Source of the DNA: Phycisphaerae bacterium
GTDB lineage: Bacteria > Planctomycetota > Phycisphaerae > Phycisphaerales > UBA1924
NCBI GenBank assembly: GCA_002706885.1
Contig: PAKY01000020.1
Span: 1-64,000 of the forward strand
Length of the DNA stretch: 64,000 bases
Direction: 5' to 3'
This document shows positions 13,739-16,104 of the stretch, in pieces (the first letter of the stretch is position 1; each line of letters begins with the position of its first letter). The position numbers and the translations under genes were made by a program. Under the pieces are notes generated by a model that was not told the DNA's origin, made no database searches, and saw only the letters and a program-made list of their open reading frames with translations.

Positions 13739-13823
13739 GGTGTGCCATGCCCACGCGCAGCGCGGGCACGCTTCGCCACCGGCCGTCCACGCATGCCCGC
13801 GCTGCGCGTGGGCATGGCACACC
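13739..13823. repeat. Perfect 30-bp inverted repeat between convergent genes
   Basis: Left arm 13739-13768 starts GGTGTGCCATGCCCACGCGC. The right arm 13794-13823 is its exact reverse complement; 25 bases lie between. It is positioned between the LOG gene (rightward) and a leftward lipoprotein gene, where it could stop both transcripts. Each arm also contains internal palindromic parts, and a related single arm is at 3466-3497. Confidence 0.93.
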
Positions 13824-15123: not shown

Positions 15124-16104
15124 ATGAGCCAGACACCAGCGCAACCGTCGAAGTCGCCCGGCCGCACGCTCCGAGACCTGATGGCGAAGGGGGTGGTGGC
15201 GGCGCCCGGCGCGTTCAACGGGCTGGTGGCGCGGGCGGTGGCGCGGGCGGGGTTCGACGCGGCGTACGTCTCGGGCGGGGCGACGAGCGTGGCGGCGGGC
15301 GTGCCGGACGTCGGGATTCTGAGCCTCGACCACTTCGCGCGGGTGGTTCGGGAGGTGTCGTCGAACGCGGTGCGGGAGGACGGGTCTCGGCTTCCAGTGA
15401 TCGCGGACGCGGACACGGGGTTCGGCGAGCAGGAGATGATCCGGCGGACGGTGATCGACTACGCGCACGCAGGGGCGGCGGGGCTGCACCTCGAGGACCA
15501 GGTGTTCCCGAAGCGCTGCGGTCACCTCGACGGGAAGACGTGCGTGCCTGTTGACCTGATGGTGGACAACGTGCGCTGGGCGAAGAAGGCGGCGCTCGAC
15601 TCGCGCGACCCGGACTTCATCGTGTGCGCACGGACGGACGCGGTGGGGGTGGAGGGGTTCGATGCTGCTGTCGATCGGGCGGCGGCGTACGTCGAGGCGG
15701 GGGCGGACATGATCTTTCCGGAGGGGTTGCACAGCGAGGATGAGTTTGCGCGCTTCGCGGAGGCTGTGGGTAGGTCGGCTCTCCGAGCTGGCGCGGGGGA
15801 GGCCGGCTCGGAGAGCCGACGTACCCAAGGCCCTTATATGCTGGCGAACATGACCGAGTTCGGGAAGACGCCGCTGATTCCGCTGGAGCGTTTCGGGGCG
15901 ATGGGGTACGACATCGTGATCTTCCCGGTGACGACGATGCGCGTGGCGATGGGGGCGGTGACGCGGGCGTTGGCGGCGTTGAAGGACGAGGGGACGGTGG
16001 CGTCGTTCCTCGACGGCATGCAGACGCGGGACGAGTTGTACGGGCTGGTGGGGTATCGGCCCGGGACACCGTGGGAACTGCCGGGGGCGCATGCACGCAG
16101 GTGA
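15124..16104 (+). CDS. prpB: Methylisocitrate lyase, with in-frame palindromic insertion
   Basis: 326 residues from ATG 15124. It splits 2-methylisocitrate into pyruvate and succinate (ICL/PEP-mutase superfamily). Active-site loop KRCGH at 130-134; ADADTGFG and HLEDQVFPK are typical. Between FAEAV and MLANMTEFGKTP, where relatives have only a few residues, there is an Arg/Ser/Gly-rich insert (about residues 214-235). It is encoded by a 61-base palindrome (15767-15827), and the reading frame is intact. The insert probably forms a surface loop. Pathway partners prpD and prpC are nearby. Confidence 0.93.
   Translation: MSQTPAQPSKSPGRTLRDLMAKGVVAAPGAFNGLVARAVARAGFDAAYVSGGATSVAAGVPDVGILSLDHFARVVREVSSNAVREDGSRLPVIADADTGFGEQEMIRRTVIDYAHAGAAGLHLEDQVFPKRCGHLDGKTCVPVDLMVDNVRWAKKAALDSRDPDFIVCARTDAVGVEGFDAAVDRAAAYVEAGADMIFPEGLHSEDEFARFAEAVGRSALRAGAGEAGSESRRTQGPYMLANMTEFGKTPLIPLERFGAMGYDIVIFPVTTMRVAMGAVTRALAALKDEGTVASFLDGMQTRDELYGLVGYRPGTPWELPGAHARR
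15767..15827. repeat. Palindromic element inserted in frame in prpB
   Basis: Left arm 15767-15788 (TGGGTAGGTCGGCTCTCC...) and right arm 15806-15827 are complementary at 21 of 22 positions around a 17-base loop. It adds about 20 codons without a stop or frameshift. This resembles the protein-coding palindromic elements described in Rickettsia. No second copy of this sequence is visible in the window. Confidence 0.9.

Follow-up and report, generated by a model that had tools for sequence, protein, structure and literature searches.

Introduction

REPs owe their name to an extragenic location. Two of them in inverted orientation form a small unit, the REPIN (PMC8049555), and the S. maltophilia REPtron has a perfect palindrome, split by 3 nt, with GTAG immediately in front of it (PMC8266576). 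REPINs and REPtrons are mainly intergenic, and their RAYTs are described as single-copy, vertically inherited and domesticated (PMC8049555, PMC8266576, PMC6006769); unusually long TnpA-Y1 proteins have been discarded as products of gene fusion or faulty annotation (PMC6006769). One survey places GTAG REPs within genes, tRNA synthetases included, often as dimers coding for 20-30 residues and with Opitutus terrae of the PVC group among the genomes, and also reports GTAG repeats in Planctomycetes (PMC3733652, Di Nocera et al. 2013).

The locus considered here is a palindrome in the prpB gene of a planctomycete. Very probably, it is a non-autonomous GTAG-type REP doublet, REPIN-like, which was copied into prpB by a RAYT and kept as an in-frame loop, with an autonomous form of the element present in relatives.

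A palindrome read through in prpB

The window, by which we mean the whole 64,000-nucleotide stretch of DNA that was analysed, comes from contig 20 of an assembly of 3.57 Mb in 127 contigs that is 91% complete. A sequence-only reading of this DNA had described two 22-base arms, complementary at 21 of 22 positions, around a 17-base loop at 15767-15827, inserted in frame and with no stop in a gene for methylisocitrate lyase. The rescan returned exactly this structure, with arms TGGGTAGGTCGGCTCTCCGAGC (15767-15788) and GCTCGGAGAGCCGACGTACCCA (15806-15827), and the frame is open from end to end, with profile matches on either side of the insert. The inverted repeat can be extended to 31+31 nt at 87% around a 9-nt loop, and dissection of the element reveals two GTAG-headed REP units, inverted relative to each other and separated by a 9-nt spacer. 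The features are as follows.

15124..16104, + strand: prpB, methylisocitrate lyase of 326 aa, host of the insert, through which its frame stays open; TIGR02317/PRK11320 matching on both sides
15767..15827, no strand: whole palindromic element, a doublet of inverted REPs whose in-frame reading is V-GRSALRAGAGEAGSESRRTQ
15768..15773, + strand: left REP unit, head GGGTAG (GTAG at 15770-15773); the GTAG head is common to most genome copies
15774..15792, + strand: left REP unit, stem-loop GTCGGCTC-TCC-GAGCtGgC, with two changes relative to the genome consensus GTCGGCTCTCCGAGCCGAC
15793..15801, no strand: spacer between the units, GCGGGGGAG; a RAYT gene occupies the equivalent place in the leucyl-tRNA synthetase (LeuRS) genes of G012, G102 and G119
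15802..15820, - strand: right REP unit, inverted stem-loop, with one change, which pairs with a change in the left unit
15821..15826, - strand: right REP unit, head GGGTAC (GTAC rather than GTAG); GTAC heads are known from other genome copies

As single-stranded DNA, positions 15755-15840 fold at -35.5 kcal/mol, against -17.3 +/- 2.4 for shuffled sequences (z -7.6, 0/200). When the full 64 kb was scanned for inverted repeats whose 22-nt arms differ at no more than 1 position and whose loop measures 3-40, two places emerged, 15767-15827 and 13740-13822, the latter a perfect inverted repeat with 29-bp arms and a 25-bp loop. The PrpB copy looks worn, with one GTAC head and altered stem bases, and may be immobile. 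An A to G change in its left unit is matched by T to C in the right unit, replacing an A-T pair with G-C and preserving the long hairpin; as a single event, this is weak evidence.

The REP unit and its copies

Most copies in the window genome read GGGTAG followed by GTCGGCTC-TCC-GAGCCGAC, that is, a head and then a perfect stem of 8 bp and a TCC loop. At a tolerance of 2 mismatches, the 15-nt core of the arm has 75 matches in this genome compared to 31 for the reversed control, and the 24-nt unit GGTAGGTCGGCTCTCCGAGCCGAC has 26 compared to 0. The 24-nt unit is also present in 24 of 200 related genomes, all from the same family, at 1 to 74 copies per genome. Inverted doublets, sought with a gapped pattern in the 200 relatives, number 5 in the window genome, 7 in G092 and 1 in G095. 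A GTAG-type head in front of a palindrome, many copies, and inverted pairs with a short spacer are the marks of GTAG REPs and REPINs, and it is with these that the PrpB insert belongs, as an inverted doublet of the REPIN/BIME type.

The genome-wide search for the arm, which the earlier reading had called for, thus recovered further copies, including two more doublets lying in frame within genes. These and the doublets of the two relatives are listed below.

C67:9689-9768, window genome: REP doublet in frame in a valyl-tRNA synthetase (ValRS), host assigned by Pfam
C85:16409-16481, window genome: REP doublet in frame in a glutamyl-tRNA synthetase (GluRS), host assigned by Pfam
G092: doublets in frame in CysRS, asparagine synthase (AsnB), MetH, GluRS, MnmG and a MiaB/RimO-type radical-SAM protein
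G095: doublet in frame in an aldehyde dehydrogenase

At least 6 of the 7 doublets in G092 are intragenic. For three doublets (L193 in G092, C105 and C118 in the window genome) the host frame has no family match, and ORFs spanning the unit at other copies in the window genome gave no family match across it. The positions of the ValRS and GluRS inserts are visible against the solved structures 1gax and 5h4v. The encoded peptides are much alike from host to host, for instance GRSALRAD...VGSESRPTQ or VGRLSEP...VGSESRPTQ. Read alone, the REP unit carries a stop, the TAG of its head, in only one of six frames, which suits the retention of in-frame insertions, and the phase that reads the GTAG head as a TAG stop is used by none of the 10 in-frame doublets ((2/3)^10 = 0.017). 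The GluRS doublets of the window genome (L012) and of G092 (L190) occupy the same place, between WDEGP and GGDPR.VGPF, in two genera and with different spacers, reflecting either common ancestry or a repeated hit.

Occurrence in many genes bears on a possible role for the hairpin as an RNA element of the prpB transcript, governing attenuation or stability and kept for that role. The hairpin is highly stable, its long stem holds one compensating A-T to G-C change, and REPs can act on mRNA (PMC3733652). However, the same doublet is found in unrelated genes with no obvious common regulation, and the PrpB loop accepts inserts of other kinds (see below), so that retention as an RNA element is highly improbable.

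The insertion site in PrpB

The closest named PrpB relatives come from Phycisphaerales and Phycisphaeraceae MAGs. Among relatives of the same family, the loop between helix FA.A and strand YLLANMTEF is variable in length, and the stretch from IFPEG to the end of the strand spans 43 to 62 residues, mostly free of palindromes. Because loop length already varied in the family, only part of the extra length of this PrpB can be assigned to the element; the palindrome itself apparently adds about 20 residues that are translated and tolerated. In the AlphaFold2 model of PrpB (36 sequences, mean pLDDT 91.4), whose fold matches that of E. coli PrpB (1xg4, E 1.7e-29), the insert is predicted to fall between helix 205-223 and strand 238-242, in a region of low confidence (block means of 60 and 75, with residues 229-231 below 50). 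The model therefore agrees with the suggestion, made from the sequence, that the insert sits in a tolerant loop.

Two relatives have other DNA at this position. G014 carries an unrelated palindrome, GGATGTCCCCCCGCTTGCGCGGGGGGC, in frame in the same loop (L063, G014:C60), with 44 copies in that genome at up to 3 mismatches, and in G025 a tandem repeat of the GCGCACA type extends the loop (L088/L200). Since relatives vary here, since this palindrome and this repeat occupy the loop, and since model confidence is low around it, the PrpB loop tolerates foreign sequence.

The same variability, with 43 to 62 residues from IFPEG to the end of the strand in relatives, might be read as a sign that a native loop of PrpB had drifted into a palindrome with no insertion at all. 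Such drift is contradicted by the recurrence of the same 24-nt unit, head included, 26 times in the genome and, in other genes, at unrelated sites. When PrpB was aligned across relatives, as had been proposed from the sequence, the insert DNA proved absent: none of the other same-family genomes examined, all from outside the genus, has REP-doublet DNA at prpB. Native drift is accordingly given almost no credence, and insertion of a REP doublet is the reading followed below.

A RAYT between inverted REPs inside leucyl-tRNA synthetase

In G102, G012 and G119, inverted copies of this same REP unit, with 0-2 mismatches, stand about 650-690 bp apart on both sides of a RAYT, and the whole REP-RAYT-REP lies in frame in LeuRS, between AEIEF and LRVFTTRPDT. 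An ordinary intergenic REPtron was ruled out for these three genomes, because the arrangement sits within LeuRS. Eleven of the embedded RAYTs share one LeuRS loop, and in G107 and G072 variant REPs surround RAYTs at a second LeuRS site, between AYWM and GVDLY. The embedded proteins match NCBIfam NF047646 (REP_Tyr_transpos) at E 1e-20 to 1e-29, and all 10 sequences aligned keep H-V-H and Y..NPV unchanged; with an HUH motif, a catalytic Y, the REP_Tyr_transpos profile and flanking REPs, they are RAYTs (TnpA-REP).

With a RAYT of the LeuRS type as query, matches were found in 70 of the 200 relatives, and about 45 of the matches lie within open frames of 500-1690 aa. L348 and some other long frames, being unconfirmed, are excluded from the cases counted. 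Profile-confirmed hosts include LeuRS, ValRS, MiaA, KBL and RdgB, and most RAYTs of the other type stand alone. The RAYTs resident in ValRS (L173, L175, L178, L181) are flanked by the peptide GTGVSPV and by GRDARPT-like peptides, which resemble the translated ends of additional REP families. Across 392 genomes sampled from the whole phylum, RAYTs are mostly standalone, with in-frame cases recurring in AlaRS, PurH and a salicylyl-CoA hydroxylase/oxidoreductase. RAYT frames were also seen within DNA methylase-like defence proteins (PglX-like, DUF1156) in other planctomycete orders (L363, L365, L367, L345).

Chance open frames of GC-rich DNA around the RAYTs were rejected as a source of these chimeras, as representative hosts show matches to named families on either side of the RAYT. 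Some hosts come from genomes assembled as one contig (G090, G165), evidence against assembly chimeras. In 12 of 27 parsed embedded RAYTs the stretch from host to RAYT core holds no ATG, although GTG and TTG codons do occur, a pattern compatible with translation that begins at the start of the host. For G012, G072, G008, G073, G028, G024 and G033, no LeuRS match is better than the interrupted gene, which is probably the only LeuRS of these genomes.

The presence of a transposase between the repeats also bears on the idea that the insert is a palindromic element of the Rickettsia type (RPE), a selfish palindrome that spreads through coding genes with no transposase of its own. The behaviour is similar, with some 20-30 coded residues added in frame to unrelated housekeeping genes, and PMC3733652 classes RPE-4 and RPE-6 with the REP-like CGTC repeats. 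Against this, the head is GTAG and not CGTC, each unit is a short perfect hairpin, the units come in inverted pairs and flank a RAYT in relatives, and CGTC repeats are reported as having no association with a transposase gene. An RPE proper is therefore very unlikely. The sequence-only reading, which had likened the insert to an RPE, was right that this is a repeated, mobile-looking palindrome in frame, and its identity is instead that of a GTAG REP doublet. In-gene REPs of this superfamily have been published before, among others from the PVC bacterium Opitutus terrae (PMC3733652).

Gain or exchange, and constraint, of embedded RAYTs

Filled and empty sites occur within single genera. G080 (empty) and G119 (filled) have LeuRS proteins that are 93% identical, with loops of 29 aa and 256 aa, and a few loop codons differ at the junction, so that it is not a clean insertion; G002 and G098 (genus g3) are likewise empty and filled. 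In genus g70, the LeuRS proteins of G073 and G137 are 77% identical and the RAYTs at the same site only 49%, with different ends. Across 78 pairs, which are not independent and for which the p value is only indicative, host and RAYT identities are uncorrelated (Spearman 0.15, p 0.19), pointing to repeated insertion. From these comparisons it would seem that RAYTs were gained repeatedly at the LeuRS loop, or else swapped there. With pN of 0.24-0.26 and pS of 0.60-0.74, and dN below dS in 3 of 3 pairs compared (dS being near saturation), the embedded transposase frame is, on its substitution pattern, under constraint.

Low dN/dS, together with the sharing of one LeuRS loop by eleven embedded RAYTs, would also be expected if these were ancient domesticated domains inherited with LeuRS and not the products of repeated insertion. 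The empty and filled sites of G080 and G119, in one genus and in hosts that are 93% identical, argue otherwise, as do the divergent RAYTs of G073 and G137, the missing correlation between host and RAYT, and the existence of a second LeuRS site and of other host genes. Inheritance as a domesticated domain is thus unlikely, and repeated gain or exchange is preferred.

RAYTs of the window genome

The RAYT type resident in LeuRS was sought in the window genome and is absent from this 91%-complete assembly, whose own LeuRS (C90:8532) has an empty site. Two standalone RAYTs are present (C69:29920, L060 1344-2032; C90:5958, L061 1113-1782), each carrying a different REP of its own, GGGTGCCGTGGAGA and GGGTGCCACGGAGGAGC, and the genome thus has at least three REP families. 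Both RAYTs were rejected as cognate candidates, their REPs being of other types. The RAYTs examined in G092 and G095, the genomes with the highest copy numbers, do not have the PrpB-type REP at their flanks, and not all of those examined in G092, G095, G107 and G008 are flanked by it.

A model for in-frame REP insertion

The repeat, its copies, frames and host genes, the REP-RAYT-REP units, the empty and filled sites and the conserved catalytic motifs are all directly seen, and the following steps most likely account for them. A RAYT, an HUH/Y1 tyrosine transposase, would recognize the GTAG-headed hairpin in single-stranded DNA, cleave it, and transfer either a doublet or a complete REP-RAYT-REP to a new site, after which selection would retain those insertions that preserve the reading frame and land in loops. 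The prpB doublet would have been copied by a RAYT as single-stranded hairpin DNA, and would have survived as a flexible, translated segment of the helix-to-strand loop. In relatives, the autonomous REP - RAYT - inverted REP would be translated along with the host enzyme, its transposase forming a domain within that enzyme. We infer movement of these REPs by the RAYT, an origin of the window genome's doublet from a RAYT of this kind, and the production of chimeric proteins that work. More broadly, we lean slightly towards the view that Planctomycetota REP-RAYTs are gene-dwelling elements, in frame in essential single-copy enzymes and translated as an internal domain, that shed doublets such as the one in PrpB, in the manner of inteins that do not splice.

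The arrangement matters for several reasons. Doublets lie in core enzymes, and a whole RAYT lies in what is, in the genomes checked, apparently the sole full LeuRS, with gain or loss between congeneric species. The embedded RAYTs make RAYT movement and expression directly testable, the inserts map, by natural experiment, which loops of aminoacyl-tRNA synthetases tolerate insertion, and in-frame RAYTs explain over-long annotated synthetases of planctomycetes.

Comparison with known systems

Inteins and homing endonucleases are selfish enzymes read as part of conserved essential genes, and several genomes may carry them at one and the same site. The likeness of the embedded RAYT to an intein is a functional analogy only: the RAYT is an HUH transposase bounded by REPs, splicing motifs were not noted, and the host protein apparently keeps the insert. 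Rickettsia RPEs have in common with the present elements the in-frame placement of palindromes in unrelated protein-coding genes, ten in-frame doublets in our case, and differ in sequence and head and, for the RPE-4/6 type as described in PMC3733652, in having no linked transposase.

REPINs and REPtrons share the inverted REP pair and an HUH/Y1 transposase flanked by the same REPs (PMC8049555, PMC8266576, PMC6006769), and the present REP unit, with its perfect stem, 3-nt interruption and GTAG in front, resembles that of the S. maltophilia REPtron (PMC8266576). Unlike in those systems, the RAYT here lies in frame within other genes and was apparently acquired repeatedly. The literature searched, which included few subscription journals, yielded no account of RAYTs lodged in frame in other genes or of a transposase inside a synthetase.

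A close likeness is to the intragenic GTAG REPs of PMC3733652, which are GTAG-headed palindromes, often inverted dimers, in housekeeping genes; relative to these, the REP sequence in Phycisphaerales is new, as are the hosts prpB, valS, gltX, cysS, metH and mnmG. REPs in genes are listed there, and the parts consulted mention no complete RAYT within the coding gene of another protein. The PrpB insert is thus a further member of a published class of in-gene GTAG repeats, and the new part is the autonomous form, a RAYT carried in frame.
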